This document shows positions 1,699-23,383 of a DNA stretch of 25,360 bases, one piece after another. Location: IMG/VR virus record IMGVR_UViG_3300010370_000221, positions 1 to 25,360 of that record, one strand, 5' to 3'. The translations under genes and the position numbers were made by a program. The stretch comes from a virus. Every line of letters begins with the position of its first letter. The first letter of the stretch is position 1. Under the pieces are notes generated by a model. The model had not been told where the DNA came from. It did no database searches and was given only the letters and a program-made list of their open reading frames with translations.

Positions 1699-2250
1699 AT
1701 GAAGAAAATAAATCCAGAATTAATCGGAGATTTTAAATCCATAGAATATCCAGCAAGGAGACAATTTCCTAGTGATGAAATTGTTGAATCTTGGAAAAAA
1801 CGTGGGCATCTTTATGTAAATTATACTGGACTTCTAAGAGAAGAATATCGTGGTGTTCCAGAATGGTCTCATGATATTGTAAAAGTATTTAAAAAAAAGT
1901 ATATTCAAGACGGAGACAATTGGTATCTTCTAAAAGATACCTCATTGTCTCTTTATTGTATGCCTCCAGGAACAATCATGCCAGAGCATGAGGATACTTA
2001 TCCTAGGTTTAGAGAAATATATGGCGAACCAGATGTAAATAATATTTGTAGGATTTTAATATTTTTAGATGACTGGAAAACTGGACATTATTTTGAATTG
2101 AATAGAGAACCCTATGTTAAATGGCAAAAGGGAAACTATGTTTGGTGGAGAGGAGACACTTCTCATTTAGCTGCCAATCTTGGTATGGAAAATAGATATA
2201 CAATGCAAATTACAGCAACATTATCATTATGCAAAAAAGAAGAGCAGTAA
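1699..2250 (+). CDS. 2OG-Fe(II) oxygenase-like protein (putative hydroxylase)
   Basis: The start lies one base after the helicase stop, so the two genes are probably read from one transcript. The 183-residue product has a cupin-type dioxygenase signature: H97-x-D99 in PPGTIMPEHEDTY, a distal His156 in WWRGDTSHLAANLG, and Arg166 in NRYTMQIT, which could bind the 2-oxoglutarate carboxylate. Enzymes of this superfamily hydroxylate protein side chains, nucleic acids or small molecules using O2, Fe(II) and 2-oxoglutarate. It opens the glycan/modification cassette and is followed by a sulfotransferase overlapping by 22 nt. A hydroxylase next to GT25-like transferases recalls hydroxylation-then-glycosylation of proteins, but that link is inference. 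The substrate is unknown. A second, unrelated-looking oxygenase lies at 10554. Confidence 0.7.
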   Translation: MKKINPELIGDFKSIEYPARRQFPSDEIVESWKKRGHLYVNYTGLLREEYRGVPEWSHDIVKVFKKKYIQDGDNWYLLKDTSLSLYCMPPGTIMPEHEDTYPRFREIYGEPDVNNICRILIFLDDWKTGHYFELNREPYVKWQKGNYVWWRGDTSHLAANLGMENRYTMQITATLSLCKKEEQ

Positions 2251-2960
2251 TAGATGATATTGTAGAGCAACATTCTAAATATTGTTCTACTTTTACATTT
2301 AAATTGCAAAAGGGAATTCCTGGACAAGCAATACATAAAGAGGGGTTTATAAATTGTTATTGGTCTAAGGACTATAAACTAGTTTATATGCACATTGATA
2401 AATGTGGAAGTACGTCTGTTACAACTGCATTTGATACTCAATGTCAATATTTTATACCATTAGATAAATTGCCAAGAGCAAAAGATCCAGATTTTTTAGC
2501 GCAATATTTTGTAGAGTCTGATCATAAATTTTTTGCAATAACTAGAGATCCAGTTAGTAGATGGATATCTGGTTTAAATGAATTTATGTGTAGATATAAA
2601 CCACCAATAGAATGGGTTGTTAAACAAGTTCAAAATAAAAAATATATTTACGATGAACATACTGCTCCCCAAAAAAATTTTTTAAGATTGTGTTTTGAAA
2701 ATAATGGCAATCTTACGCTAATAAAATTAGATAATAATTTAAACGAAAAAATTAATTCGTTTATAAAAAATAATATTTCTGAAGAATTGCAGATTAGATA
2801 TAAGTCATTACAAATTCCACATTTGAGAAATTCAAAATATTTTATGCCAAATTATACTGCAATATGTAAAAAGATATATCAAGAATATGTTGAAACTAAT
2901 TTGACTGAATTTAAAACTCTTTATCAAGATGACTTTGAGATGTATGAAAATGGAATTTGA
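2229..2960 (+). CDS. Sulfotransferase family protein
   Basis: The 243-residue product shows both PAPS-binding elements of cytosolic/Golgi-type sulfotransferases. A 5'-phosphosulfate loop, HIDKCGSTS (55-63), follows a beta strand. A 3'-phosphate site, RDPVSRWISG (106-115), follows the strand FFAIT. The family moves sulfate from PAPS to hydroxyls or amines of carbohydrates, lipids or proteins. Placed among glycosyltransferases and an aminotransferase, it most likely sulfates a sugar of the glycan built by this cassette, though a tyrosyl or lipid target is possible. The start overlaps the preceding gene by 22 nt with no clear ribosome-binding site, suggesting translational coupling. The coding sequence is strikingly AT-rich (runs such as aataaaattagataataat), unlike the helicase or nrd genes. 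Confidence 0.78.
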   Translation: MQKRRAVIDDIVEQHSKYCSTFTFKLQKGIPGQAIHKEGFINCYWSKDYKLVYMHIDKCGSTSVTTAFDTQCQYFIPLDKLPRAKDPDFLAQYFVESDHKFFAITRDPVSRWISGLNEFMCRYKPPIEWVVKQVQNKKYIYDEHTAPQKNFLRLCFENNGNLTLIKLDNNLNEKINSFIKNNISEELQIRYKSLQIPHLRNSKYFMPNYTAICKKIYQEYVETNLTEFKTLYQDDFEMYENGI

Positions 2961-3546
2961 TATTGTAGATGAATTTGAAAGAACTATTGCAGATTATTTT
3001 GGTTCTCCTTATGCTGTAGCAACTGATTGTTGTACACATGCAATAGAGTTGTGTTTGAGATATGAACAGTATGATCAAATACAAATACCCGAACAAACTT
3101 ACATATCACTACCATTCACTGCAGAAAAACTTGGGTTAAAGTGGAGTTGGAAAAAAAATTACAAGTGGCATGATTATTATCGTATTTGGAATACTAATAT
3201 AATTGATGCTGCTGTTTTGTGGGAAGAAAATACTTATATTCCTGGAACTTATATGTGTTTGAGTTTTCAATTTAAAAAACATTTAAATCTTGGTCGAGGT
3301 GGAATGATATTATTGGATAATAAAGATGCGTATGATACTCTTAAAAAAATGTCTTACGATGGTAGAACTAGTGATAAACCTTGGGGAGAACAGGATATAG
3401 ATATTATAGGGTATCATTATTATATGACCCCAGAAACAGCGTCTCTGGGAATTCAAAAATTTGAAGAAGTCAAATCAAAAGAACCAAAAAGATTTTGTTA
3501 TTTGAATTATCCATTTTTGCCAGATATGAGAGTATTTAAAAAATGA
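2944..3546 (+). CDS. Short DegT/DnrJ/EryC1-type PLP aminotransferase
   Basis: The product is about 200 residues, against roughly 370-400 for normal DegT enzymes, which aminate keto-sugars or keto-cyclitols. Family landmarks are nevertheless present in order: an N-terminal FERTIADYFGSPYAVAT element, the IIDAA aspartate expected to contact the PLP pyridine nitrogen, and SFQFKKHLNLGRGG. In that last segment the second Lys, six positions on from Ser, is where the PLP Schiff-base lysine lies. The element GYHYYMTPETASLGIQKFEEV follows. The small C-terminal domain is missing and the central substrate region is contracted. Start candidates are 2929, 2944 and 2950; none has a clear Shine-Dalgarno, and all overlap the sulfotransferase end. 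The stop overlaps the next ATG (ATGA). It may be a minimal active enzyme, or need a partner. Confidence 0.7.
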   Translation: MKMEFDIVDEFERTIADYFGSPYAVATDCCTHAIELCLRYEQYDQIQIPEQTYISLPFTAEKLGLKWSWKKNYKWHDYYRIWNTNIIDAAVLWEENTYIPGTYMCLSFQFKKHLNLGRGGMILLDNKDAYDTLKKMSYDGRTSDKPWGEQDIDIIGYHYYMTPETASLGIQKFEEVKSKEPKRFCYLNYPFLPDMRVFKK

Positions 3547-4421
3547 ATTTAGATAATAAGTTAAAAGGTCTTCCTCCAATATTTTATCTTAACTTAGATC
3601 ATAGAATTGATCGAAAGGAACATATTGAGGGTCAGTTTAAAAAGTGGGGGGTAACTGATTTTACTAGAGTGTCTGCATCTAGATTTTCTACTGCTAAAAT
3701 TGATGAATGGGCACATAAGTTAGACCTTATGTTGTTAGCGCCATCAGATGCATCTATTGTAATGAATGAATTTACTACACTTATTGAATGGTATAAGTCT
3801 GGAATATCCGAAATTTGTATGATTGTACAAGATGATTTGTGCTTTGATTTAGTTGAATATTGGCCCTTTGATTGGAATACTGTAATGAGCAGACTTCCCT
3901 ACAATTGGGATATTGTTCAGTTTTACTATTGTCACGATCATGTTTTAAAAATGCATTTGCATCCAAGAGAATGGCATAGTTCTTCTGCTGCTTGTTTTAT
4001 AGTTAATAGATTTTTTGTTGAGAAATTAATGAAGATACACCTAAAACCTGATGGAACTTTTAAACTTAACAATAGTTTAAGAGATATGAAAGTTCCAAGG
4101 GAATCATATAGTAGTGATGACTTCTTATTGTATCAAATAGGAAAATCATACACTTTACCTTTATTTTGTTTAGATCCAAAACTAGCATTAGCACCAGATA
4201 ATAGGATTGAAAATATAGAAAATGATGAAGAGTATGATCCTATCATTAGTGCATATCATAATAAAATTTACGACGTATTAGCAACATCATGCACTAAAAA
4301 GTGGTGGGAAAATAATAGTCATAAGTATAGTGCTGATGATATCTTGAGTTATGGTGGATCTGTACATGAGATGATGCAGGTTCAGTTGCCACAGTATGAT
4401 AAGAAGGTATTGCCAAAATGA
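3543..4421 (+). CDS. GT25-like glycosyltransferase, tandem copy 1
   Basis: First of five tandem paralogues (292 residues). Family GT25 includes LPS biosynthesis transferases and collagen galactosyltransferases. The N-terminal signature NLDHRIDR at 17-24 matches the GT25 NLDxRxDR nucleotide-sugar motif. The metal/donor motif, normally EDD, reads QDD at 96-98. The GxAxSH-type motif between them is lost (VMNEFTTLIEW). Downstream elements shared by all five copies are FDWN, LPYNWD and LHP. A C-terminal WW followed by an aromatic-rich tail resembles copy 2 most, so copies 1 and 2 form one subgroup. The start is inside an ATGA overlap with the aminotransferase and the end is an ATGA overlap with copy 2, implying coupled translation. 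It may be active despite the Glu-to-Gln change; this is uncertain. Confidence 0.75.
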   Translation: MNLDNKLKGLPPIFYLNLDHRIDRKEHIEGQFKKWGVTDFTRVSASRFSTAKIDEWAHKLDLMLLAPSDASIVMNEFTTLIEWYKSGISEICMIVQDDLCFDLVEYWPFDWNTVMSRLPYNWDIVQFYYCHDHVLKMHLHPREWHSSSAACFIVNRFFVEKLMKIHLKPDGTFKLNNSLRDMKVPRESYSSDDFLLYQIGKSYTLPLFCLDPKLALAPDNRIENIENDEEYDPIISAYHNKIYDVLATSCTKKWWENNSHKYSADDILSYGGSVHEMMQVQLPQYDKKVLPK

Positions 4422-5299
4422 TGGATGAATTAGAAATTAATTTTAAAACTATATCAAGTAAATTAGATGGGATTCCAAAAATAATTTACTTAAATGATAA
4501 TCAACATCTTGATAAAAAGATGTATATGGAAAATCAATTTAAGAGTTGGGGAATTAAAGACTATAAAAGACATGAAAAAAAGTATAAAGAAGAAACTTAT
4601 AATGAGTGGAAAGATTTAGTTTTAGATGATAATCTAGTACAGTCCCCATCAGAATTGGCATTAACATTAAATACAATAAACTCAGTCATAGAATGGTACG
4701 ATTCTAATGAATCTGAAATTTGTATTTTTATGGAAGATAATATTAAATTTGATGCAGTTAATAATTGGCTTTTTGACTGGAATCTACTAATGAAGAATCT
4801 CCCATACAATTGGGATTGCATTCAATTTTTTAGTTCTGCAGAAAGAAGAATAAAAATGCATCTACATCCATGGGAGAGTGACAGTGGATCTTGCCATTGT
4901 TATATGATTAGTAGATATTTTGCTAAAAGATTGAAGCACTATCATTATAAAGATGGTAAATTTTTATTGCACTATCATACGCCAGATAAATCAATCCCAG
5001 ATTTTGAATACGGAGGTCTTCACAATTTCTTTTATAATTTAGGAATTACATATACATTACCAATATTCTCTTTAAATGAAGAGTTCATTGGTAGTGATAC
5101 TGTTAATGATCTTGTCGATAAGTTATCATCAGAGGCAATAGATTATTGGTGGTCGATAAGAAGCAAATCTTATTCTTCTTTTGAATTTTTTCATTATAAC
5201 AAAAATGATGAGTGGAGAATGGAAGTGATGTTTGATATATCTACAAAAAAACCATATGTTTTTAAAGATAAATCTGAGGGTCTCTTACTGTGGATATAG
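4418..5299 (+). CDS. GT25-like glycosyltransferase, tandem copy 2 (degenerate motifs)
   Basis: This 293-residue paralogue keeps the fold markers of its neighbours: KLDGIPKIIYLN at the N-terminus, FDWNLLMKNLPYNWD, MHLHPWE and a late WW. It lacks the catalytic-looking signatures. The NLDxRxDR segment has become NDNQHLDKK, EDD reads EDN at 106-108, and the SH element is absent. It resembles copy 1 most (YTLPIFSL against YTLPLFCL near residue 215). Loss of the signatures with an intact reading frame suggests a non-catalytic or altered-specificity partner rather than a pseudogene. Two adjacent ATGs (4418 and 4421) could serve as start; both lie at the copy 1 stop. The C-terminus runs into copy 3 by 10 nt. 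Confidence 0.7.
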   Translation: MMDELEINFKTISSKLDGIPKIIYLNDNQHLDKKMYMENQFKSWGIKDYKRHEKKYKEETYNEWKDLVLDDNLVQSPSELALTLNTINSVIEWYDSNESEICIFMEDNIKFDAVNNWLFDWNLLMKNLPYNWDCIQFFSSAERRIKMHLHPWESDSGSCHCYMISRYFAKRLKHYHYKDGKFLLHYHTPDKSIPDFEYGGLHNFFYNLGITYTLPIFSLNEEFIGSDTVNDLVDKLSSEAIDYWWSIRSKSYSSFEFFHYNKNDEWRMEVMFDISTKKPYVFKDKSEGLLLWI

Positions 5300-6192
5300 A
5301 AAATAAATTGGCAGGTATGCCTCATGTCTATTTTTTTAATCTCGATAATCGAGATGATAGAAGAAAGTGGATGGAAAGGCAATTTAAAAAATATGGAATA
5401 CAACATTCAAGAGTGTCTGGAACAAAATATCTTGCATCTGAAAATGGTAAATGGAAGCATTTAATATATGATATTGAAGATTATCATCTTTTAGTTCCCA
5501 TTGCTGCTAATGCTGTAACTCATTTAGATTTTTTGAAGAACTGGTACAAAAATACAAAAGACCCATATGTAATTTTAATGGAAGATGATTATGATCTTGG
5601 ATTAATTGAACGTTGGCATTTTGATTGGAATGAACTGATTCAAAGATTGCCTTATGATTGGGATTGTCTTTTGATGGGGTTTGAGAATCCAACAGGATTA
5701 AGATTTCATTTACATCCAATTGAAGATGCACATGACTTTGGTCCTGTTCTTCTGAATAGAAATTATGTAGAGAAATTGTTAGACTTACATTGTGTTGGAG
5801 ATCAATATAAACTAGTTAATACTGTTTGTAATGCCGCATGGAATAGGCAGAGTGATGTTGCTGGATCTGGTACAGTTGATTATTTTATGGTCCATACTGG
5901 CAGAACATATTGCATACCACTAATTACAATAAATCCTAATTTTGGGAGTTTTGAAAATAATAGCGTCATCCAAAGATTTTTTAGGGAAGAGGGTGATATT
6001 ATTGCAAGAAACACCTATTATTTTTGGTGGCAACATGAACGGGATAATTATAGTTTGGATCAATTTTTTACATTTGGATCAATTGAACATAATAAAATGA
6101 TTTTAAAACCAGATAGATTCAGGACATATGACATAACAAATAAGGGTGCAGAATTGTATGGTGAAGTGTATCTTGATTACTTTAGAAAATAA
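5290..6192 (+). CDS. GT25-like glycosyltransferase, tandem copy 3 (complete motifs)
   Basis: This 300-residue copy has the full signature set. NLDNRDDR lies at 17-24, ANAVTH near 73-78 corresponds to the GxAxSH element, and EDD at 98-100 sits in VILMEDDYDL. FDWNELIQRLPYDWD and FHLHPIEDAH follow, then TVDYFMVHTGRTY and a C-terminal WW. It groups with copies 4 and 5 (TVDYF...G.TY...P). The start is GTG at 5290: the resulting MDIENKL aligns with MDLKYKL and MDLKNKL of copies 4 and 5, which decides it. It overlaps copy 2 by 10 nt. Expected activity is transfer of a hexose from a UDP-sugar; acceptor unknown. A 51-nt gap follows, holding a late-promoter octamer. Confidence 0.78.
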   Translation: MDIENKLAGMPHVYFFNLDNRDDRRKWMERQFKKYGIQHSRVSGTKYLASENGKWKHLIYDIEDYHLLVPIAANAVTHLDFLKNWYKNTKDPYVILMEDDYDLGLIERWHFDWNELIQRLPYDWDCLLMGFENPTGLRFHLHPIEDAHDFGPVLLNRNYVEKLLDLHCVGDQYKLVNTVCNAAWNRQSDVAGSGTVDYFMVHTGRTYCIPLITINPNFGSFENNSVIQRFFREEGDIIARNTYYFWWQHERDNYSLDQFFTFGSIEHNKMILKPDRFRTYDITNKGAELYGEVYLDYFRK

Positions 6193-6194
6193 CT

Positions 6195-6202
6195 CATAAA
6201 TA
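6195..6202 (+). promoter_or_regulatory. Late-promoter-like octamer CATAAATA within the glycosyltransferase array
   Basis: It lies in the only real gap of the cassette, 42 nt before the ATG of GT25 copy 4. Its spacing is longer than that of the other octamers (20-32 nt). Confidence 0.45.
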
Positions 6203-6243
6203 CTTTTAAGAAAAAATTTAATGATGTGTTAGTTTAAATTATT

Positions 6244-7050
6244 ATGGATTTAAAATATAAACTGAAAAATGTTCCAACGATATATTATTTTAATTCCGAT
6301 AATAATGCTCATCTAGATGAGCATATGGATAGAAGTCTTAGTAATTTAAAGGTAGAAAATTATCAAAGAGTAACCACTTCAAAATATACTAAAGATAATG
6401 TATCTGACTGGAAAGATTTATTGATTGATATAAAAAATTATAAATTGCCTGTTACAACAGCTGCATATTCAATAACAGTTTTAGAGTTTTTAAAGGACTG
6501 GTTTTATAATACTGAAGAAGAAAAAGTTATTATTTCAAAAGATACTATTGATTTTGGATTAGATATCTATTGGCAATTTGATTGGGAATACATTAATACT
6601 AGAATCCCATATGATTGGGACTGCTTAATGCTAGGATTTGAAAATATTAATTATATTCCATTTTATCTCCACCCGATCATGCCAGCTCATACTTTTGGTA
6701 TGGCAATGTTGAATAGAAGATATGTTAAAAAATTAATCAAACTACATTGTCAAGAAGAAAGGTATAAACTGACGAATTATATTGCTAATAAAAATTTTGG
6801 ATTAAATTCTGGAACAGTTGATTATTTTATAGGGCATTGTGGCAAGACATATTGTTTACCTATGTTTCCAAATCATACAGATTTTTTTAGCAAGAATACT
6901 AAACGATACAGTATAGTAAAGGCATGTAGATTAGCATATTATGATTGGTGGAGAAATGATAGTAAACGACATAATTTAGATGAGATCTTTACATATGGAA
7001 AACAGAATGATATGGGAATGGTGAAGAAAACTATACATTATTTGAGATGA
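6244..7050 (+). CDS. GT25-like glycosyltransferase, tandem copy 4 (degenerate motifs)
   Basis: A 268-residue paralogue of the copy 3/5 subgroup, sharing MDLKYKLKN, FDWEYINTRIPYDWD, FYLHPIMPAH, TVDYFIGHCGKTY and LDEIFTYG. Like copy 2 it has lost the signature residues. NLDxRxDR is replaced by NSDNNAHLDE, the THL element reads AYSITVLEF, and EDD has become KDT at 99-101. The frame is open with no interruption, so it appears to be under selection for something other than standard catalysis. A regulatory, dimer-forming or new-specificity role is inference. It is the only glycosyltransferase in the row preceded by a real intergenic gap, with the octamer CATAAATA 42 nt upstream of the ATG. It ends in an overlap with copy 5. 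Confidence 0.7.
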   Translation: MDLKYKLKNVPTIYYFNSDNNAHLDEHMDRSLSNLKVENYQRVTTSKYTKDNVSDWKDLLIDIKNYKLPVTTAAYSITVLEFLKDWFYNTEEEKVIISKDTIDFGLDIYWQFDWEYINTRIPYDWDCLMLGFENINYIPFYLHPIMPAHTFGMAMLNRRYVKKLIKLHCQEERYKLTNYIANKNFGLNSGTVDYFIGHCGKTYCLPMFPNHTDFFSKNTKRYSIVKACRLAYYDWWRNDSKRHNLDEIFTYGKQNDMGMVKKTIHYLR

Positions 7051-7850
7051 TGGATTTAAAAAATAAACTTAAAAATTTTCCACATATTTACTATGTAAAT
7101 TTAGATAATAGAACTGATCGAAGAACTTATATGGAAGATCAGTTCTATTATTGGAAGTTGCAATTCACGCGGATCTCTGCATCAAAATTTTTAGCATCTA
7201 ATCTTGATGAGTGGGGATCAAAATATGTTGTTGGTGCGGTCACTGGAATACCTGCATATGCATTGGGAAATGCTGTAACTCATCTAGAGTTTATGAAAAA
7301 ATGGATAAACACTAGAGATGATGAATACTTATTGTTGATGGAAGATGATTATGATTTAAATTTATTGGAGTATTGGAACTTTGATTGGACATATCTTATG
7401 AATAGACTTCCATATGATTGGGACTGTATTCAACTAGGATTTGAATCTCAGGAATTTATTCCATTCTTTCTACATCCAAAATTAAGACATAGTTTTTTTG
7501 GACCCGTTATGATGACAAGGGATTATGTTGAAAAGATACTACACCTACACTGCCGAGGAGAAAAATATAAATTTGATAGAACAGTTGCTATAGACAAGTT
7601 TAATAAATCTTCGACTACTGTCGATTATTTTATAGGACATACTGGAAGAACGTATTCTATTCCCTTAATCACAACAAACAATAAGTTATCTAGTACTGAA
7701 TATGGAATAGAAATTAATAGATTGCATCATCAAAAATCTAGGTGTGCTTATTATTATTGGTGGATGAAAGAGCATTTAAAATTTACTTTGGATGAGTTCT
7801 TTACATATGGTAAAGATAATGATCATCAAATGGTTTTAACTACGAGTTGA
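7047..7850 (+). CDS. GT25-like glycosyltransferase, tandem copy 5 (complete motifs)
   Basis: This 267-residue copy carries intact motifs: NLDNRTDR at 18-25, GNAVTH near 74-79 and EDD at 99-101 in LLLMEDDYDL. FDWTYLMNRLPYDWD, FFLHPKLRH, TVDYFIGHTGRTY and LDEFFTYGKDNDHQM follow. Its tail is close to that of copy 4, so the two probably arose by recent duplication followed by decay of copy 4. ATGs at 7047 and 7050 are both possible starts; 7050 gives MDLKNKL, matching copies 3 and 4. The start overlaps the copy 4 stop. The stop is followed three bases later by the amidinotransferase ATG. Likely a UDP-sugar-dependent transferase acting with copy 4. Confidence 0.78.
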   Translation: MMDLKNKLKNFPHIYYVNLDNRTDRRTYMEDQFYYWKLQFTRISASKFLASNLDEWGSKYVVGAVTGIPAYALGNAVTHLEFMKKWINTRDDEYLLLMEDDYDLNLLEYWNFDWTYLMNRLPYDWDCIQLGFESQEFIPFFLHPKLRHSFFGPVMMTRDYVEKILHLHCRGEKYKFDRTVAIDKFNKSSTTVDYFIGHTGRTYSIPLITTNNKLSSTEYGIEINRLHHQKSRCAYYYWWMKEHLKFTLDEFFTYGKDNDHQMVLTTS

Positions 7851-7853
7851 AGT

Positions 7854-8819
7854 ATGTACGCAAAAAATGAATGGGACAAATTAAAAAAGGTAATTGTTGG
7901 TGTTGCTGACTATGCAACAATCCCAGCAATGGACAAAAGTTTGAGAACAATTAATTATGCTGGAATTCAAGACGTTTCTGATGTAAAAACTGGATTATAT
8001 CCACAACAAGTTATTGATGAATCCAATGAAGATCTTGAAACTTTTTGTTCTTTTTTACGTAATGAAGGCGTAGATGTTTTAAGACCAAAGAGAGAAATAA
8101 CAAGATATTATAATTATTGTCCAAGAGACTGTGTGTTTTTACATGGGGAACTTGCTCTTGCTACACCTCAACCACTGAGGGCAAGGAGAGGTAACTGGAG
8201 ATCATTTAGACACTACCTCATAAATCCAATTGAAATACCATGCTCATATCATGAGGACCTTTATAATGAAGAATGTATTGGAGATCCAGACACTCTTGCT
8301 TTAACGGAACTTACTCCAGCATTTGACGCTGCAAATGCCATACGTGCAAATAATGATATTTTATATTTGGTATCTAATAGTGGTAATGTTGCTGGTGCAA
8401 CAATACTTCAAAACCATCTTGGATCATCTGCAACAGTGCGAATTGTAAAGGACATCTATACTTTTGTTCATATTGATACGACGATTGCATTTTTAAGAGA
8501 AGGTTTAATGATGGTTAATCCCACCAGAGTTAAAAGTAAAGACATGCTTCCACATCCATTCAATACTTGGGATATAATTAATGCTCCAGATCCAGTAGAC
8601 ATTGGATACTATCCAGGTTATAATAATGCTTCAGAGTGGTGTAACATGAACTTGTTTAGTGTTTCACCAAATTTGGTTGCATTGGAAGAGCATCAACATC
8701 CAACAAGAAAAATATTAGAAACATATGGTATTGAATGTGCAATGCTTCCGATGAGACACCAAAGAACTCTTAGTGGAGGATTCCACTGCGTAACATTAGA
8801 TCTAGAAAGAGAAGCATGA
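7854..8819 (+). CDS. Glycine/inosamine-type amidinotransferase
   Basis: The 321-residue product has the pentein-fold catalytic residues of arginine:glycine amidinotransferase and StrB-type inosamine-phosphate amidinotransferases: Asp158 in PAFDAAN, His206 in FVHIDTT and nucleophile Cys312 in GGFHCVTLD. CPRD (89-92) and VNPTR (221-225) are further family landmarks. These enzymes move the amidino group of arginine onto an amine, giving a guanidino product. The start is 3 nt after copy 5 and the stop makes an ATGA overlap with the sugar dehydrogenase, so it belongs to the glycan cassette. With a DegT-type aminotransferase upstream, a guanidino-sugar or guanidino-cyclitol product is plausible, as in streptomycin biosynthesis. 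A glycine (guanidinoacetate) acceptor cannot be excluded. Confidence 0.85.
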   Translation: MYAKNEWDKLKKVIVGVADYATIPAMDKSLRTINYAGIQDVSDVKTGLYPQQVIDESNEDLETFCSFLRNEGVDVLRPKREITRYYNYCPRDCVFLHGELALATPQPLRARRGNWRSFRHYLINPIEIPCSYHEDLYNEECIGDPDTLALTELTPAFDAANAIRANNDILYLVSNSGNVAGATILQNHLGSSATVRIVKDIYTFVHIDTTIAFLREGLMMVNPTRVKSKDMLPHPFNTWDIINAPDPVDIGYYPGYNNASEWCNMNLFSVSPNLVALEEHQHPTRKILETYGIECAMLPMRHQRTLSGGFHCVTLDLEREA

Positions 8820-10036
8820 ACATTGGATTTATTGGCCTTGGTAAACTTGGATTGCCATGTGCATCAGAAATTGCTACTAAAAATCATATCGTTTATGGAT
8901 ACGATGTAGAATATCGCAGTGGTGGATTAATTAATATTTGCTCTTCAATAGAAGAAGTAGTTCAAAAATCTAAAATTATTTTTATTGCAGTACCAACACC
9001 ACATCATCCAGATTATGATGGAAGCACACCATCAATGCACTTAGAACCAAAAGATTTTGATTACTCAATCGTTAAAGACTGTTTAACAGAAGTAAATTCT
9101 GTTGCAAAAGGACAATTAGTTGTATTAATATCTACTGTATTGCCTGGCACCACCAGAGAACAATTTGTACCACTGATGACAAATGCGAGATTTGTCTATA
9201 ATCCATATTTGATTGCCATGGGAACCGTTGGGTGGGATATGGTTAATCCTGAGATGGTTATGATTGGTACTGAAGATGGATCTACCACTGGAGATGCTAA
9301 AGAACTAATTAATTTTTACAAAACTATTATGGAGAATAATCCAAAATATTTTGTAGGGACGTGGGATGAATGTGAATGTATAAAAGTTTTTTATAATACT
9401 TTCATTAGTACCAAAATCGGATTTGTAAACATGATTCAGGATGTTGCAATGAAACAAGGTAACATCAATGTAGATGTAGTTACGAATGCATTGTGTTCTG
9501 CTGGAACTAGAATTATTAATTCGTCCTATATGACAGCAGGTATGGGTGATGGAGGCGCGTGTCACCCAAGAGATAATATTGCACTTAGATATCTGTCTCA
9601 AAAACTAGGTTTGGGATATGATATGTTTGAGTCTGTTATGAAGTCTAGAGAAATTCAAGCAAAAAATCTTGCTGAGTATCTAGTAACTCTTTCTAATCAA
9701 CATAATCTTCCTATTGTTATTCATGGTAAATCATATAAACCAAGAGTTAAGCATCTTGATGGAAGTTATAGTTTGTTGGTAGGACACTACTGTAAAGAAT
9801 TTGGTAAAGCAGTTTCTTATGTTGATCCTGGTACAAAAGATGTTTATACTTCTGACGAACCTGCAATTTTTTTGTTAGCACATAGCGCAACTACAACATA
9901 CAAATATTGGGATGCTCCAGAAAGTGATGAACTATATTGTCAAATTCCAAAAGAAAGCATAGTAGTTGATCCGTGGAGAAAATTTAAATCACAAAATATA
10001 AAGGTTATTCATTACGGAAACACTAGACAAAACTAA
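8816..10036 (+). CDS. UDP-glucose/GDP-mannose dehydrogenase family protein
   Basis: These enzymes oxidise a nucleotide sugar twice with NAD to the uronic acid (for example UDP-glucose to UDP-glucuronate). The 406-residue product starts with a Rossmann GLGKLG at 7-12 and has VPTP at 59-62 and ISTVLPGT near 105-112. The active-site set follows: Lys190 and Asn194 in ECIKVFYNTF, and the nucleophile Cys249 in GDGGACHPRD. The C-terminal domain (HGKSYKPRVKHLDGS) is the usual family continuation. The exact sugar specificity is not readable. The start overlaps the amidinotransferase stop in ATGA, and this is the last gene of the cassette. It probably makes the acidic donor sugar for the GT25 enzymes, or the precursor that is later aminated. 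Confidence 0.88.
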   Translation: MNIGFIGLGKLGLPCASEIATKNHIVYGYDVEYRSGGLINICSSIEEVVQKSKIIFIAVPTPHHPDYDGSTPSMHLEPKDFDYSIVKDCLTEVNSVAKGQLVVLISTVLPGTTREQFVPLMTNARFVYNPYLIAMGTVGWDMVNPEMVMIGTEDGSTTGDAKELINFYKTIMENNPKYFVGTWDECECIKVFYNTFISTKIGFVNMIQDVAMKQGNINVDVVTNALCSAGTRIINSSYMTAGMGDGGACHPRDNIALRYLSQKLGLGYDMFESVMKSREIQAKNLAEYLVTLSNQHNLPIVIHGKSYKPRVKHLDGSYSLLVGHYCKEFGKAVSYVDPGTKDVYTSDEPAIFLLAHSATTTYKYWDAPESDELYCQIPKESIVVDPWRKFKSQNIKVIHYGNTRQN

Positions 10037-10073: not shown

Positions 10074-10547
10074 ATGACAGTTACGATTACGAAAAAAAGT
10101 CATCCTGATGGTTCTACTGAATTTACTATGAGTGAAAATAAAGTTATTGATACTAAAAAATATATTGAGTTTGTTCGTCAAACTACGAGTCCAGCAAGCA
10201 GTGACCTTTCAAGCTTACTGTCCCGAATGGCTGAATTAGAAGCATCTACAGACGCTGACGTTCCTCGTCTTCTTACTGCAGCTCTTGGAATGTCTGCAGA
10301 AGCGGGAGAATTTACTGAAGTAATTAAAAAAATTATTCTTCAAGGAAAACCATACACTGAAGAAAATCAATTTCATCTAAAGCGTGAACTTGGTGATATT
10401 TGTTGGTATCTTGCCCAAGCATTTATGGCACTAGGAACAGACTTTGAAGAAGTCCTTCAAATGAACTATGAAAAACTAAGTGCTCGCTATCCAGAAGGTG
10501 CATTTGATGTTTACCGTTCCGAAAATAGAGTTAAAGGTGATCTCTGA
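10074..10547 (+). CDS. mazG: MazG-like nucleotide pyrophosphohydrolase
   Basis: The 157-residue protein has the all-alpha NTP-PPase metal-binding pattern. A first helix carries Glu76, Glu79 and Glu82 (SAEAGEFTEVIKK), and a second carries Glu105-x-x-Asp108 (KRELGDICWYL). Family members hydrolyse (d)NTPs to monophosphates. Phage MazG in cyanophages was proposed to alter (p)ppGpp, but its known biochemical preference is for nucleotides. It is preceded by about 60 residues without an obvious domain; a later start is possible, but the ATG at 10074 leaves only a 37-nt gap to the previous gene. It is a common cyanomyovirus gene located close to the replication block. Confidence 0.85.
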   Translation: MTVTITKKSHPDGSTEFTMSENKVIDTKKYIEFVRQTTSPASSDLSSLLSRMAELEASTDADVPRLLTAALGMSAEAGEFTEVIKKIILQGKPYTEENQFHLKRELGDICWYLAQAFMALGTDFEEVLQMNYEKLSARYPEGAFDVYRSENRVKGDL

Positions 10548-11186: not shown

Positions 11187-11188
11187 TT

Positions 11189-11270
11189 GCCCAGTTGGCG
11201 GAATTGGTAGACGCGGCAGGTTTAGGTCCTGTTACTTCAATGTGTGTAGGTTCAAGTCCTATACTGGGTA
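11189..11270 (+). tRNA. tRNA-Leu (anticodon UAG)
   Basis: An 82-nt class II tRNA folds by hand. The acceptor GCCCAGT pairs with ACTGGGT (first pair G-U), with discriminator A at 11270. The D arm contains TGGTAGA. The anticodon stem is GCAGG/CCTGT with loop TTTAGGT, so the anticodon TAG is at 11223-11225 and reads CUA leucine codons. A long variable arm follows, then a T arm GTAGG-TTCAAGT-CCTAT. The 3' CCA is not encoded. It lies right after the hydroxylase stop and right before a late-promoter octamer. Confidence 0.95.
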
Positions 11271-11278
11271 TCTAAATA
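11271..11278 (+). promoter_or_regulatory. Late-promoter-like octamer TCTAAATA
   Basis: The octamer begins at the first base after the tRNA and lies 22 nt before the ATG at 11300. It is a CTAAATA variant of the T4-type late box (TATAAATA), recognised in T4 by gp55-RNA polymerase with gp33 and the sliding clamp. Confidence 0.45.
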
Positions 11279-13031: not shown

Positions 13032-15434
13032 ATGGCAAATTTACAGCATATTGTCACTGACCTCCATCAGGTTTATCTGACCGAGATGGAAGCAAAAATT
13101 CAGCCAAAAATTGGTAAAAAAGAATCACCTGCTGCTTCTGGTGGTGGATCCTCTGAAGGTGGTGGAGATTCTGGTGGAGATCCTGTTAAGAAGCAAGCAA
13201 GGCAACTTGCTTATGACACAAGATACAAAGCAAGAAGAGAAGGAATTCCTCTAGAAAGAGCGTTTACACAAACACTTCAAAACTCAAAAGCTTCTGCTCC
13301 AGTCAAGGATGCTGCAAAGGCAATGCTTTTTGGTGGTGGAGTTAAAGAAGAGGTTGATTCTATTGAAGAAGACGATAAGCAAAAAGTTTTAGTTACTCCA
13401 GCAAAGGGATATGGAAAACCATATCGCAGATATGCATCTAGAACTAAGATTCATCAGTTGAGATCTAATCCTCAAATCCAATCTGTAACTGGAACTTCAT
13501 ATGGTAATCCATATGAAGGTGAAAAGAAGAAGGGAGAGCAAACTGCTGCCGCACTTCAACATAAACCAGGTGGTAAAAAGGCAAAGAAAGATTTTGATGG
13601 TGATGGTAAGATTGAAAGTGGTAGTAAAGAACATGCTGGAGCAGTTCACAATGCCATTCAAAAAGCAAGAGGTGGCGTTCCTGATGGTAATGACACCAGA
13701 AAGAAGGGTGTAAAAAAAGAATCTGCACATCTTTCTGATTGGAGACAAGATCTTCATGAAGTGATTAGTAAGTCTACAAATTCAGATGTTAAAAAGATTT
13801 CAGAAAAAAACGTAGATAATAAAATTATAATTAATCCAGAATTAAAAGAAGAATTTTTTTTTAAATCAATTGAAATAGCAACAGAATATTTTTATGAGCA
13901 AGGATTAAATTCTACTGGTCTTGATATTCTTATTGAAGATCTTGGTTTAGAAGAATTTGCCCAGTTTGTATTTGAACTTGGTGAAGAATATGAACTAACT
14001 GAAGCGAAGTTTGATAGACTTCCTCCAGTATCTAAGAGTGGAAAAAATATTTCTTCTCTTAAAGGTGGTGCAAAGGCATCTGCAATTAAATCAAAAAAAC
14101 AAATAAGAACAACTCTTAGAAAAAAAGTTGATGATGAATCAAAGTCAAAACCTGGATTTAAATCATTTTCACAAAAACATTCTGCAGTAGCAAATGCCAA
14201 GAAACAACAACCCGCTAAGAAACCATTAAAAGATAGAATTGCTAAAGGTGTTCTTGGTGCTGTTAAGGCATATCAGCAGGGAATGGAACGTCATAGAGCA
14301 GCAACCGCAACTGCTGGTAAGGCAGTAAAAGTTGCAGCGAAGGGCGCAACTGAATTTGGTAAAGGAGTAGCATCTGGTGTAAAGGCAACGGCAAAAGTTG
14401 CAAAGGCAGCACATAAAGTTCTCAACAACTCTTATGAGATGGATGAGGCAGTTTATGGTGGTGAAAAAAAAGAACCAGAAGATAAAAGAATGACTGTAAC
14501 TGCTGCAGATAAAAAAGCAAACACTAAAGCATGGCAAAAGTTTAGTGCAGGTCATCCTTCATACAAAGCAGCAGCGCATCTTCAAAATTCTTCTTTTGAA
14601 CTAGAAGGTGATTTAGTTGATGAAGCAACTGATGATCCTATTGATGTTGATTTTAAACCACAAAGACTACCCAACGGTAAAACTCCAAAACCAAATCCAC
14701 AACATGCAGCAGCAATTGCTGCCGCCTTAAAATTAAGAGCAAGAGTTAAAGCATCTAAAAAAGTTGATGAAGGTCTTGCACAAGCACGTAAGAATGTTGG
14801 TGCAAGTAAGTGCTGGCCTGGTAAAGTTGCCAGAGGAACAAAAATGAAGAATGGTCGTGAAGTTCCAAATTGTGTTCCTGAAGCAGCAAGAGAACCCTAT
14901 GCAATCGGTATGGCAGCTGCTATGGATCAGGCTGATGATAAACCACCTCTAAAGAAATCTACTATCACAAAGGCACACAAAATTGCTAAAAAAATTGAAG
15001 CACAAGAAGCAGTAGATCCAAAGTCAGCACTATCACCAAAACAAAAAGATACTGAAAGACAACAGACTTTAAATGCTAAAGCAAAGTTAGAAAGAATCTT
15101 ATCAACACGTAAGGGTGACTATAGAGAAGAAACTGAACTTGATGAACTCAATCGTTATGAGAAAGAAAAAGGTAAAGACCTTAAAACTGGTAAACCAGTA
15201 ACCAAAGGTGGTACTATGGGTGGTAATGACACGCACTCTAAAGTGATGAGACACATGCATAGTGTTATGGGTGCTGGTAGAATGGGTGCTGGTGGTGCTA
15301 TTCAACAAAGAGGAAAGAAAAAGGTAAAGGGTGCTCCTACACCTGGACCTAGCGTTACTCCAGCACAAAAAGTAGCAAAGCGTCGTGCTGATGCCCAAAG
15401 AGCACAGGACATGATGCATTCTAGATACGACTGA
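13032..15434 (+). CDS. Large Ala/Lys-rich virion structural protein (cyanomyovirus type)
   Basis: This 800-residue protein resembles a family seen in cyanomyovirus virions; I know of no enzymatic role. Features in order: a Gly/Ser-rich linker (35-50); a basic helical part; an EF-hand-like loop DFDGDGKIE at 187-195 followed by SGSKEHAGAVHNAIQ; an acidic helical domain (about 270-325, containing LDILIEDLGLEEF); a histone-H1-like Ala/Lys/Gly block (about 398-466, such as AVKVAAKGATEFGKGVASG); low-complexity segments with KCWPGKVARGTKM and NCVPEAAREPYA; and a His/Met/Gly-rich C-terminus. Short hydrophobic-x-E/A,G sequences separate the blocks (LTEAK, MDEAV, VDEAT, VDEGL), resembling prohead-protease-like sites; this is inference. 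The start is preceded by AGAGG. A late promoter-terminator series follows. Confidence 0.72.
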   Translation: MANLQHIVTDLHQVYLTEMEAKIQPKIGKKESPAASGGGSSEGGGDSGGDPVKKQARQLAYDTRYKARREGIPLERAFTQTLQNSKASAPVKDAAKAMLFGGGVKEEVDSIEEDDKQKVLVTPAKGYGKPYRRYASRTKIHQLRSNPQIQSVTGTSYGNPYEGEKKKGEQTAAALQHKPGGKKAKKDFDGDGKIESGSKEHAGAVHNAIQKARGGVPDGNDTRKKGVKKESAHLSDWRQDLHEVISKSTNSDVKKISEKNVDNKIIINPELKEEFFFKSIEIATEYFYEQGLNSTGLDILIEDLGLEEFAQFVFELGEEYELTEAKFDRLPPVSKSGKNISSLKGGAKASAIKSKKQIRTTLRKKVDDESKSKPGFKSFSQKHSAVANAKKQQPAKKPLKDRIAKGVLGAVKAYQQGMERHRAATATAGKAVKVAAKGATEFGKGVASGVKATAKVAKAAHKVLNNSYEMDEAVYGGEKKEPEDKRMTVTAADKKANTKAWQKFSAGHPSYKAAAHLQNSSFELEGDLVDEATDDPIDVDFKPQRLPNGKTPKPNPQHAAAIAAALKLRARVKASKKVDEGLAQARKNVGASKCWPGKVARGTKMKNGREVPNCVPEAAREPYAIGMAAAMDQADDKPPLKKSTITKAHKIAKKIEAQEAVDPKSALSPKQKDTERQQTLNAKAKLERILSTRKGDYREETELDELNRYEKEKGKDLKTGKPVTKGGTMGGNDTHSKVMRHMHSVMGAGRMGAGGAIQQRGKKKVKGAPTPGPSVTPAQKVAKRRADAQRAQDMMHSRYD

Positions 15435-22156: not shown

Positions 22157-23383
22157 ATGAACTTTACTAATATTTCTGAAGCATACCAAGCAATTTACGA
22201 ACCAGTTGAGTTGGTTGAAGAATTCCTTTCAGAGGAATATGATGGTATTGAGGAATTAACTGAAGATGACTTTAGTTATATTGCCGAAGAGACTATCTAT
22301 GAAGTCCTAGATGAAGGCATTGAGGTTGAAGAACTTGATGATATTTTTGAAGCAGTGATTATGGAGTTGAATCCATATGCTCCTGCTGGATCAAAGGCAG
22401 CAAAACAATATCAAAAGTCAACTTCAGCATCTAAGCGTAGTGCTGAGAGATCTGCAGCAGTCTCTGCAGCAAAAGAAAAAGTTAAGGGTGCAATTAAGAG
22501 TACAGTTAAGACTGTTAAATCAAAAGCTCTTGCTGCTAAAGGATCTGCTCAAAAGACAGCAAAAGGTCTCAAGCAACAATCGCATGTTGGTGTTGCCAAG
22601 TATGCAAACAAGCATAACCTTGTAAAGGGTGCTGGACTCAAGACTCAATCAAGCAAAGGTAGAGGAGAACTTCGCTCTGCTGTTGCCAAGCATGTTGCTT
22701 CTAGAGTTAAGGATAAAATTAAATCAGCAGTTGGTAAAGTTAAGCAAAAGGCAGCATCTGCAGCAGTATCGGGATATGCAGCGGCACGTTCTGCTAAGCA
22801 AGCAGCATCTGATGTTAAGAACAGAGCAGTACAATCTGCTAAGAACAAGGCAGCAGTTGCAAAGCGCAATATCAAGGGTGCAGCAAGTGCAGCAAAAGCA
22901 GGCGCTAAAAGTGCTGTAGGTAAGGCAGCAAGATCAGTTGCAACTGGTGCGGGTAAGGTTGCTTCAAAACTTGGTGAGGAGATTGATACCTATGATATCG
23001 TTCTTGAGTATCTTTGTGTAGAAGGTTATGCAGATACCTTAGAAGATGCAGAATGGATTATGGCGAATGAACTTGATTTCGATACTATTGATGAAATCAT
23101 TGAAGCTTTTAAGGCAGCAAACCTTGACAAGATGAAATCAAAGGAAGCAAAACATGCTAGTGATGCTTTTAAGAAAGGACCAAATGATGATGGAAAGTAT
23201 AGAAGTGATTCTAGAAATAGATCTATGAAGATGCATGGCATCCGTGGTGCAATCGAACGTGGTGAAGATCCAAGAGCAGATACTTATGGTGGTGCTCAAA
23301 AGAAACCAGTTGACCACAGAGCAGGATTCTCAAAAAATCCATTAAACAATCCTCCAAGACCAGTTAAAAAACCAGGAGTATGA
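22157..23383 (+). CDS. H1-like Ala/Lys-rich virion protein
   Basis: This 408-residue protein has three blocks. An acidic helical head (1-75, for example LTEDDFSYIAEETIYEVLDEG) is followed by a 190-residue Ala/Lys/Ser-rich basic block (about 76-265, such as AKEKVKGAIKSTVKTVKSKA and GAASAAKAGAKSAVGKAARS) resembling histone H1 tails. A second acidic helical element (IVLEYLCVEGYADTLEDAEWIMANELDFDTIDEIIEAF, about 277-315) precedes a polar basic C-terminus. I recognise this type from cyanomyoviruses as a virion-associated protein, probably internal and DNA-contacting. The acidic parts could neutralise or be removed on maturation; this is inference. AGGGAT precedes the ATG. A terminator follows the stop. 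Confidence 0.7.
   Translation: MNFTNISEAYQAIYEPVELVEEFLSEEYDGIEELTEDDFSYIAEETIYEVLDEGIEVEELDDIFEAVIMELNPYAPAGSKAAKQYQKSTSASKRSAERSAAVSAAKEKVKGAIKSTVKTVKSKALAAKGSAQKTAKGLKQQSHVGVAKYANKHNLVKGAGLKTQSSKGRGELRSAVAKHVASRVKDKIKSAVGKVKQKAASAAVSGYAAARSAKQAASDVKNRAVQSAKNKAAVAKRNIKGAASAAKAGAKSAVGKAARSVATGAGKVASKLGEEIDTYDIVLEYLCVEGYADTLEDAEWIMANELDFDTIDEIIEAFKAANLDKMKSKEAKHASDAFKKGPNDDGKYRSDSRNRSMKMHGIRGAIERGEDPRADTYGGAQKKPVDHRAGFSKNPLNNPPRPVKKPGV

Follow-up and report, generated by a model that had tools for sequence, protein, structure and literature searches.

The window analysed here is the whole 25,360-nucleotide stretch of IMG/VR record IMGVR_UViG_3300010370_000221, a T4-like cyanophage fragment, and the question it raises is what a block of ten genes at positions 1699–10036 makes. 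A first-pass annotation had proposed a guanidino- and/or sulfate-bearing glycan, built by the logic of streptidine biosynthesis, where an amine is installed and then amidinated. Guanidino-sugar chemistry is most familiar from antibiotics, streptomycin among them. Our reading is that the block, carried by the phage, encodes the synthesis and transfer of a guanidino-amino-sugar, and we put the probability of this reading at about 0.55.

Results

A recurrent ten-gene cassette

All ten cassette reading frames are open and lie on the plus strand, with the gp41 helicase gene on one side and mazG on the other; in phage S-SRM01, these two flanking genes adjoin directly. The cassette had been described as chained by start/stop overlaps, and this holds at seven of the nine internal junctions but not between GT3 and GT4 (a 51-base gap) or between GT5 and the amidinotransferase gene (a 3-base gap). 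The order oxygenase, sulfotransferase, DegT, glycosyltransferases, amidinotransferase is seen again in 35 loci of a redundant set. The cassette genes are under purifying selection: in comparisons of the window with four relatives by the NG86 method, dN/dS was 0.03–0.35 in every case that yielded a value (one GT4 comparison did not), with dS close to saturation in places. Because the gene order recurs and dN/dS stays within this range, we conclude that the cassette is real and not a product of chance. Scanning it for promoter-like and terminator-like sites was uninformative, since the counts (47 and 4) were about those of shuffled sequence (56.6 and 3.0).

An amidinotransferase paired with a short aminotransferase

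The amidinotransferase (AMT, 321 residues; 7854..8819, plus strand) is StrB1-like, with a phmmer match to StrB1 (1BWD) at E 6.2e-58 and 200 bits to StrB1 versus 107 bits to GATM. Its identity to StrB1 is 35.4% (205 bits), compared with 28.0% to GATM (120 bits) and 28.0% to HsvA (133 bits), and its sole Pfam match, PF02274, is below cut-off. The full catalytic triad ascribed to it is borne out, as 97% or more of 64 aligned rows keep each of D158, H206, and C312. In a tree with GATM and StrB1, the phage AMTs form a single clade (99/93) that is excluded from the GATM/HsvA clade (100/96) and has no supported position relative to the group containing StrB1. A creatine route was dropped because AMT lies outside the GATM clade. 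Our literature search, with few subscription papers in reach, found no cyanophage amidinotransferase besides an unrelated survey reporting GAMT, which is another enzyme.

Scans of IMG/VR seeded with AMT gave 154 loci, which reduce to 106 distinct AMT genes. A DegT-type gene of only ~200 residues (mini-DegT) lies near 100 of these, on the same strand in 100 of 100 pairs. When we consider only distinct AMT loci with adequate flanks (at least 4 kb upstream and at least 2.5 kb downstream), mini-DegT is near AMT in 74 of 75. An independent scan seeded with DegT gave 55 distinct genes, 49 of them with AMT (39 of 42 among those with flanks). The exceptions include L064, which has AMT and a GDP-mannose-4,6-dehydratase-like (GMD-like) gene with mini-DegT absent nearby, and L275, L307, and L308, which have mini-DegT without AMT. 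The cultured cyanophage S-SCSM2R carries the same DegT-AMT pair; a literature search, mostly unable to reach subscription papers, found no mention of this phage. Such gene blocks are carried by large viruses that infect marine cyanobacteria. The outcome named beforehand as counting against a sugar pathway, namely an AMT grouped tightly with GATM in phages without sugar genes, is not what we observe, as the phage AMTs lie outside that clade and a DegT gene is nearly always near.

In cells, none of 76 loci with AMT relatives matches any other window protein nearby, and therefore the AMT family by itself implies no sugar. Judged by eye, the recurrent neighbors there are NRPS-type, cysteine-synthase-like, ornithine-cyclodeaminase-like, and phosphopantetheinyl-transferase genes. 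This non-sugar context of the nearest cellular relatives, along with L064, would suit an AMT that acts on a small amine (an amino acid or polyamine) or on an amino-acid substituent, with the DegT product being a separate amino sugar. We regard this as unlikely, however, because the pairing in 74 of the 75 flanked loci is maintained across varied gene orders and cassette types. Such pairing points to a common metabolite or product glycan and would otherwise be hard to explain. Amination followed by amidination, carried out by DegT and AMT, is therefore supported.

The mini-DegT (205 residues; 2929..3546, plus strand) is a shortened PLP aminotransferase of the DegT/DnrJ/EryC1/StrS type, matching PF01041 at 61.0 bits (cut-off 19.8). 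It is ~160 residues shorter than its solved relatives (~360–440 residues), and in VIA-align 195–201 of its residues align over ~300-residue spans of solved chains of at least 357 residues. Since complete large and small domains are absent, we classify it as a shortened DegT form. The short length could mean that the protein is no longer an aminotransferase and serves as a PLP-binding regulator or a partner of a host enzyme, with AMT using a host-supplied amine. This seems distinctly improbable given that D93 and K117, which were assigned as the PLP aspartate and lysine by alignment to 4zwv, are invariant in 33 diverse rows, that the predicted structure is confident and compact (pLDDT 94.6, pTM 0.90), and that dN/dS between the window and relatives is 0.13–0.31. 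The best Foldseek match of the model is GDP-perosamine synthase (E 3.7e-10; top matches 3dr4, 3dr7, and 3bn1). In VIA-align, several other sugar aminotransferases equal or outrank perosamine synthase (Z 16.8–18.8), which lies within ~1 Z of them.

Sugar context of the pair

In a search for a host donor within a sample of one cyanobacterial phylum, AMT-profile matches occur in 13 of up to 386 genomes and DegT-profile matches in 130 of up to 386; among the DegT matches listed there is one full mini-DegT, in genome G371. On this cyanobacterial chromosome, mini-DegT overlaps a diverged GMD-like gene. The surrounding genes resemble polysaccharide genes by eye. On phage contigs, a GMD-like gene abuts mini-DegT in L308 and lies two genes off in L071. 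The GMD-like genes by mini-DegT score 373–381 bits and do not reach the cut-off of the gmd equivalog (415), so that their product may be a different 4-keto sugar. PF16363 is over cut-off in 9 of 11 large viral records that bear AMT or DegT, and both long window-type records encode a full-length GMD elsewhere (E 2e-155 and 4e-158). In these two records, the GMD gene adjoins a second SDR and further glycosyltransferases, roles that we read by eye. The c37 genes beside the oxygenase in L031, L032, and L034 were dropped as GMD candidates, as they share only a common BLAST cluster with GMD.

The streptidine comparison stands for the tight pairing of an aminotransferase with a StrB1-like enzyme but not for the cyclitol. 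PF01408 (GFO_IDH_MocA), which we take to be the family of the inositol dehydrogenase of the streptidine pathway, was found in 0 of the 11 viral records, which may be fragments and for which a host gene could serve, compared with 14 of 14 control genomes. The streptidine or cyclitol route was dropped on this basis. Given the lack of an inositol-dehydrogenase-family gene and the GDP-mannose 4,6-dehydratase context, a guanidino-4,6-dideoxyhexose is the likelier product over a cyclitol.

Accessory genes and the acceptor

Five GT25-like transferases had been annotated, and all five (plus strand) match phrog_2835: GT1 (3543..4421; E 1.9e-36), GT2 (4418..5299; E 2.5e-31), GT3 (5290..6192; E 2.7e-40), GT4 (6244..7050; E 5.2e-26), and GT5 (7047..7850; E 9.1e-49). 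We keep the name "GT25-like" because none reaches the PF01755 cut-off of 24 bits; GT3 (17.3 bits) and GT5 (20.0 bits) are sub-threshold, GT1, GT2, and GT4 have no match, and an S-SCSM2R relative does clear it (31.9 bits). An EDD-type motif is kept only in GT3 (EDD in 44 of 44 rows) and GT5 (EDD in 42 and EDE in 2 of 44), while QDD replaces EDD in GT1 (36 of 36 rows) and a [KR]D motif replaces it in GT4. GT2 is fast evolving with a degenerate motif, variable across 34 rows, and is broken into two ORFs in L019. A phmmer search found no PDB relative of GT5 (best E 0.24).

The nucleotide-sugar 6-dehydrogenase (UGDH, 406 residues; 8816..10036, plus strand) is over cut-off for PF00984 (61.1 bits) and PF03721 (59.7 bits) and below it for PF03720; it matches phrog_9148 at E 5.4e-96 and has GG[AS]CHPRD with the catalytic Cys in 32 of 32 rows. 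The sulfotransferase (SULF, 243 residues; 2229..2960, plus strand) matches PF03567 at 33.4 bits (cut-off 22), and all 26 rows contain K-C-[GA]-S-T-S, presumably the PAPS-site motif. A phmmer search gave it no relative in the PDB (best E 0.25).

The remaining gene, OXY (183 residues; 1699..2250, plus strand), encodes a small 2OG-Fe(II) oxygenase-like protein, an assignment drawn from conserved residues and a fold model. OXY has no Pfam match, and a sequence-profile search of the PDB returned nothing convincing, its top match being a late genes activator at E 0.0077. Its HxD...H...R residues H96, D98, H155, and R165, numbered from base 1702 (add 1 when counting from the ATG at 1699), are invariant in 23 aligned sequences. 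The model is a double-stranded beta-helix (pLDDT 89.0) that VIA-align matches to 2OG oxygenases with a best Z of 13.5; Foldseek gives TMq of at most 0.50 and rmsd of ~7–11 Å. By its modeled fold, OXY is probably a generic 2OG oxygenase.

These genes accompany AMT to different extents. OXY is near 95 of the 106 distinct AMT genes, GT25-like genes near 66, UGDH near 61, and SULF near 31. By tblastn at 1e-5 in the available flanks, 40 of the 106 have no window-type GT25 gene nearby, and UGDH is likewise missing near 13 of those 40; some of these contigs are short. SULF is missing near 75. Since GT25 genes and the sulfotransferase are so often missing, GT25 transfer and sulfation are window-type traits rather than core ones, which weakens the proposal of a glycan that is transferred by GT25 enzymes and sulfated.

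The guanidino-glycan might be made but placed on a structural protein of the phage, in the virion coat or fibers, instead of host LPS or capsule. GT25 relatives and 2OG hydroxylases act on collagen-like proteins in giant viruses and animals, which counts in favor of such a target, as does the 2OG oxygenase with two domains (the representative matches PF13640) that precedes the glycosyltransferases in many type-B loci. PMC9614988 lists mimivirus L230 as a Glc-transferase. However, the genes around the window cassette are for replication and nucleotide metabolism (helicase, mazG, primase, nrdA/B) with no fiber genes adjoining, and the one cyanobacterial chromosome with the mini-DegT/GMD-like pair has it amid polysaccharide-like genes, as judged by eye. 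We therefore consider a virion-protein target somewhat unlikely.

The same replication-gene setting of cyanophage 2OG oxygenases and transferases would also suit DNA hypermodification, where a hydroxylated base would receive a charged sugar, and sugar-bearing phage DNA has precedents in T4 and RB69. A single Tet_JBP match in S-SCSM2R falls short of threshold (15.6 bits against a cut-off of 34.9), and a PF00303 protein (thymidylate synthase or hydroxymethylase) is found in 3 of the 11 records. Against this, among these records, which may be fragments, neither Tet_JBP nor the C5 DNA methylase family PF00145 is over cut-off in any of the 11, and PF00303 is in neither of the two window-type ones. 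DNA modification is thus very improbable and was dropped, as no DNA-hydroxylation genes were found in window-type records.

Discussion

For the guanidino-sugar module, we infer the reactions, their order, the identity of the sugar, and the acceptor as follows. A GDP-mannose 4,6-dehydratase or GMD-like enzyme, encoded by the phage or its host, would provide a nucleotide-linked 4-keto-6-deoxyhexose, the ketone of which mini-DegT would aminate to give a perosamine-type 4-amino sugar. The StrB1-like AMT would then move an amidino group from arginine to the amine of this sugar. GT25-like transferases could attach the guanidino sugar onto a growing glycan; GT1, GT3, and GT5 look catalytic, and GT2 and GT4 may be helpers. 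UGDH would supply a uronic acid, and the oxygenase may decorate the product, with the sulfotransferase doing so in window-type phages only. The acceptor would preferably be a host surface polysaccharide, with a virion protein possible. The fuller version, in which widespread cyanophages build a cationic 4-guanidino-4,6-dideoxyhexose with a PLP aminotransferase pared down to ~200 residues and with a StrB1-like AMT and move it to a host surface glycan or the virion, is one that we put forward tentatively, as possible rather than probable.

The pair resembles the streptidine branch (StsC and StrB1) in joining a DegT-type aminotransferase to an Asp/His/Cys amidinotransferase with 1BWD as its best PDB match. 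It differs in that the phage AMTs form a clade of their own with 35% identity to StrB1, the phage DegT has only ~200 residues, and the loci have glycosyltransferases, UGDH, and GMD around them in place of an inositol-type dehydrogenase (0 of 11 records). GDP-perosamine synthesis in bacterial O-antigens, by GMD and GDP-perosamine synthase, is similar in the top Foldseek matches and in the GMD-like gene by mini-DegT in L308, L071, and G371. Unlike that pathway, however, mini-DegT is far shorter, its GMD-like neighbors are below the equivalog cut-off, and an amidinotransferase is added. The literature search, with subscription papers mostly outside its reach, found no guanidino-sugar wording and no guanidino O-antigen with an amidinotransferase.

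Other viruses provide partial parallels. The mimivirus viosamine pathway (R141, L136, and L142; PMC9614988) also has a virus-encoded dehydratase and DegT-class aminotransferase serving a surface glycan, but mimivirus N-acetylates the amine whereas the cyanophage cassette pairs an amidinotransferase with it. Amidinotransferases have been reported from phages before, as Campylobacter phages CP220 and CPt10 carry radical-SAM/amidinotransferase modules. PMC2853527 names their enzyme a glycine amidinotransferase and suggests a boost to host metabolism. These enzymes share 25–26% identity with AMT, keep the triad, and belong to a metabolic module that is swappable and includes two genes annotated with nucleotide-diphospho-sugar transferase domains, but the stretch of CP220 that we examined has no mini-DegT or OXY profile match. 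S-SCSM1 is likewise a T4-like cyanophage with many glycosyltransferases and 2OG oxygenases, read as cell-surface (LPS or cell-wall) genes in PMC9602691. Ocean AMG surveys can overlook a cassette of this kind because one catalogue, as described in PMC11360552, excluded AMGs whose contigs also carried LPS genes of the glycosyltransferase type.

Mini-DegT and AMT form a concrete pair for enzymology, mini-DegT being a very short PLP aminotransferase. If our reading is correct, phages carry antibiotic-style sugar chemistry that alters surface charge. A guanidino sugar used by a virus would be a charge-switching coat, and one cyanobacterium bears the aminotransferase/dehydratase half in its chromosome. 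On host LPS or the virion, a cationic sugar could prevent superinfection, protect against grazing or antibody-like recognition, or tune attachment in seawater.

Insertion Site of the Cassette

The ten plus-strand genes of the cassette (1699-10036) lie between a gp41-type helicase gene on the left (282-1697) and mazG on the right (10074-10547), both named from record matches. After mazG come a second 2OG oxygenase, directly followed by tRNA-Leu (11188-11272), then primase and nrdA/nrdB, also named from record matches. By megablast, the window, an IMG/VR virus fragment spanning 25,360 bases, matches 381 phage records, all in the 60-80% identity band and named Synechococcus (304), Cyanophage (56), Prochlorococcus (18), or Marine (3). 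In S-SRM01 the helicase and a mazG-like pyrophosphatase abut, and in S-SCSM2R the two are separated by a 2OG oxygenase and a small ORF; the cassette is therefore an insert at a variable site. Elsewhere, window positions 13032-15434 and 22157-23383 encode lysine/alanine-rich proteins of 800 and 408 aa, and the S-SCSM1 stretch matching them contains several genes annotated as virion proteins.

Amidinotransferase and Aminotransferase Occur as a Pair

We scanned IMG/VR with the StrB1-like amidinotransferase of the window (AMT; 188 relatives matched, best 80 analysed) and again with a distant AMT as seed (190 matched, best 80 analysed, 74 under new ids), giving 154 loci with 106 distinct AMT genes, where distinctness was judged by the gene plus or minus 150 bases. 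The sets from these scans and from the reverse scan described below hold the best-scoring loci, and their counts describe the nearer relatives. When the locus DNA was examined by tblastn at 1e-5, the shortened DegT-type aminotransferase (mini-DegT) was near 100 of the 106 AMT genes and the small 2OG-Fe(II) oxygenase-like protein (OXY) near 95, followed by window-type GT25-like genes (66), the nucleotide-sugar 6-dehydrogenase UGDH (61), and sulfotransferase (31). Five of the six AMT loci without mini-DegT (L016, L033, L061, L070, and L177) have contig ends or short flanks, and the sixth, L064, lacks it despite ample flank. Among distinct AMT genes whose flanks extend 4 kb or more upstream and 2.5 kb or more downstream, 74 of 75 have mini-DegT nearby. 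All 100 pairs are on the same strand, and 60 are spaced by less than 700 bases.

The reverse scan, with mini-DegT as seed, gave 86 relatives, of which the best 80 were analysed and 55 genes were distinct. AMT is near 49 of these 55, and near 39 of the 42 with flanks; the remaining three are L275, L307, and L308. The mini-DegT of L275 (7998-8597) is solitary, with no AMT and no other cassette gene in the stretch. In the 642-kb uncultured phage LR756502, a mini-DegT of 53% identity (L090 7010-7600) shares its stretch with a UGDH-like gene and, as read by eye, further glycan-type genes, and tblastn did not find AMT there. The gene cassette described by the first-pass annotation stands, and its proposal that an amine is installed and then amidinated is well supported by this pairing.

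Type A loci (35, not deduplicated) have the window gene order at the helicase-mazG site. Type B loci have GT25-like genes, mini-DegT, OXY, and AMT at other sites, frequently accompanied by a carbamoyltransferase and a 2OG oxygenase of two domains; S-SCSM2R, a phage of Synechococcus WH7803, is the cultured representative (67.1% identity to the window for AMT, 55.8% for mini-DegT). Other cassettes carry radical-SAM genes and UGDH without a window-type GT25 gene. At L287 (9578-12484), OXY-like and UGDH-like parts are fused in one 968-residue ORF, a hint that the two act in sequence. L071 and its relatives encode a TIGR04324/TIGR04323-like "sporadic carbohydrate cluster" protein scoring below cut-off.

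Fold and Family of the Two Enzymes

The mini-DegT passes PF01041, and its Asp93 and Lys117 are invariant in 33 rows. Only the N-terminal ten residues of its otherwise confident model (overall pLDDT 94.6) score low, with a mean block pLDDT of 60. The best Foldseek match is GDP-perosamine synthase (3dr4, E 3.7e-10, TM-score by query 0.71), and VIA-align gives WlaRG at Z 18.8 (rmsd 3.2 over 195) and perosamine synthase at Z 17.8 (3.5 over 198); numerous sugar aminotransferases fall between these two or tie with them. Because these matches are sugar aminotransferases, the modelled mini-DegT is a shortened sugar-aminotransferase fold; the structure does not fix the substrate.

For AMT, the best phmmer match in the PDB is StrB1 (E 6.2e-58, 200 bits), followed by HsvA (115) and GATM (107), and pairwise BLAST gives the same order (StrB1 35.4%/205 bits, HsvA 28.0%/133, GATM 28.0%/120). 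A tree of 39 rows puts the 12 from phages in one clade (99/93) and the GATM/HsvA rows in a separate one (100/96); it gives no supported placement of the phage clade relative to the StrB1-containing group, and long branches lead to CP220, one cyanobacterial row, and a second S-SCSM2R enzyme. The gene for the latter (L089 13353-14246; PQ898602 213353-214246) is amidinotransferase-like, 21.6% identical to the window AMT, and adjoins genes annotated KdsA, KdsB, and 2OG oxygenases.

Cellular AMT relatives at 76 loci are 31-42% identical, and none of their neighbours matches another window protein; the ORF filter missed AMT itself in 5 of the 76, and a profile recovers it in all 76. The phage genes were therefore not acquired recently from any sampled cell, and family membership alone does not dictate a sugar substrate. 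The cellular neighbours (L092-L167), by eye and in clusters, include NRPS-type (48/76), cysteine-synthase-like (28/76), ornithine-cyclodeaminase-like (28/76), and phosphopantetheinyl-transferase (21/76) genes; they could belong to an unrecognised pathway to amidinated peptides in marine bacteria.

A 6-Deoxyhexose Precursor Is Favoured

Of 386 sampled genomes belonging to the same phylum as a cyanobacterial MAG, a single one, G371, encodes a full mini-DegT (E 5.7e-99, against 1.7e-10 for the next match), on a 1.93-Mb contig carrying Photo_RC genes. There mini-DegT overlaps by four bases a gene like GDP-mannose-4,6-dehydratase (GMD), with a cupin-like gene near. Relatives of the cupin and GMD-like genes occur in phages L064 and L071 (59-66% and 69%) and in L307 and L308 (51-52% and 62-67%). 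Against gmd TIGR01472, GMD-like proteins of mini-DegT neighbourhoods score 373-381 bits, below the cut-off of 415; phage record G391 has a GMD that exceeds it (557 bits), as does a second GMD in G371 (548 bits). PF16363 is over cut-off in 9 of 11 large records, and both window-type records have a full-length GMD. With GMD-like genes beside or near mini-DegT and PF16363 matches in most of the large records, the precursor with the best support is a 4-keto-6-deoxyhexose, which would be GDP-linked should those neighbours prove to be true GMDs. The streptidine reading of the first-pass annotation is not supported, and a guanidino-6-deoxyhexose is the product that we favour.

A literature search of open-licence papers found no publication on a guanidino sugar in phages. 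PMC2853527 describes functionally matched, sequence-unrelated clusters in the Campylobacter phages CP220 and CPt10, which contain radical-SAM genes together with a putative glycine amidinotransferase, and PMC9614988 describes mimivirus N-acetyl-viosamine, made with a DegT-class enzyme; PMC6884629 names an amidinotransferase in its reference list only.

Glycosyltransferases and Acceptor

The GT25-like label of GT1-GT5 is based on phrog_2835 matches and on a single relative that passes the cut-off of PF01755. GT3 and GT5 have an EDD motif, GT1 QDD, GT4 [KR]D, and GT2 a variable one, which suggests that GT3 and GT5, and perhaps GT1, are catalytic and that GT4 and GT2 may not be. GT2 (4418-5299; split in L019) and GT4 (6244-7050) have no EDD-type motif yet are under purifying selection, and could be non-catalytic partners of GT1, GT3, and GT5.

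Glycosyltransferases of cyanophages are interpreted as LPS/cell-wall genes in PMC9602691. DNA is a disfavoured acceptor and a virion protein a possible one; we favour a host surface glycan because the cassette is not among fibre genes and the chromosomal mini-DegT region resembles, by eye, a polysaccharide locus.
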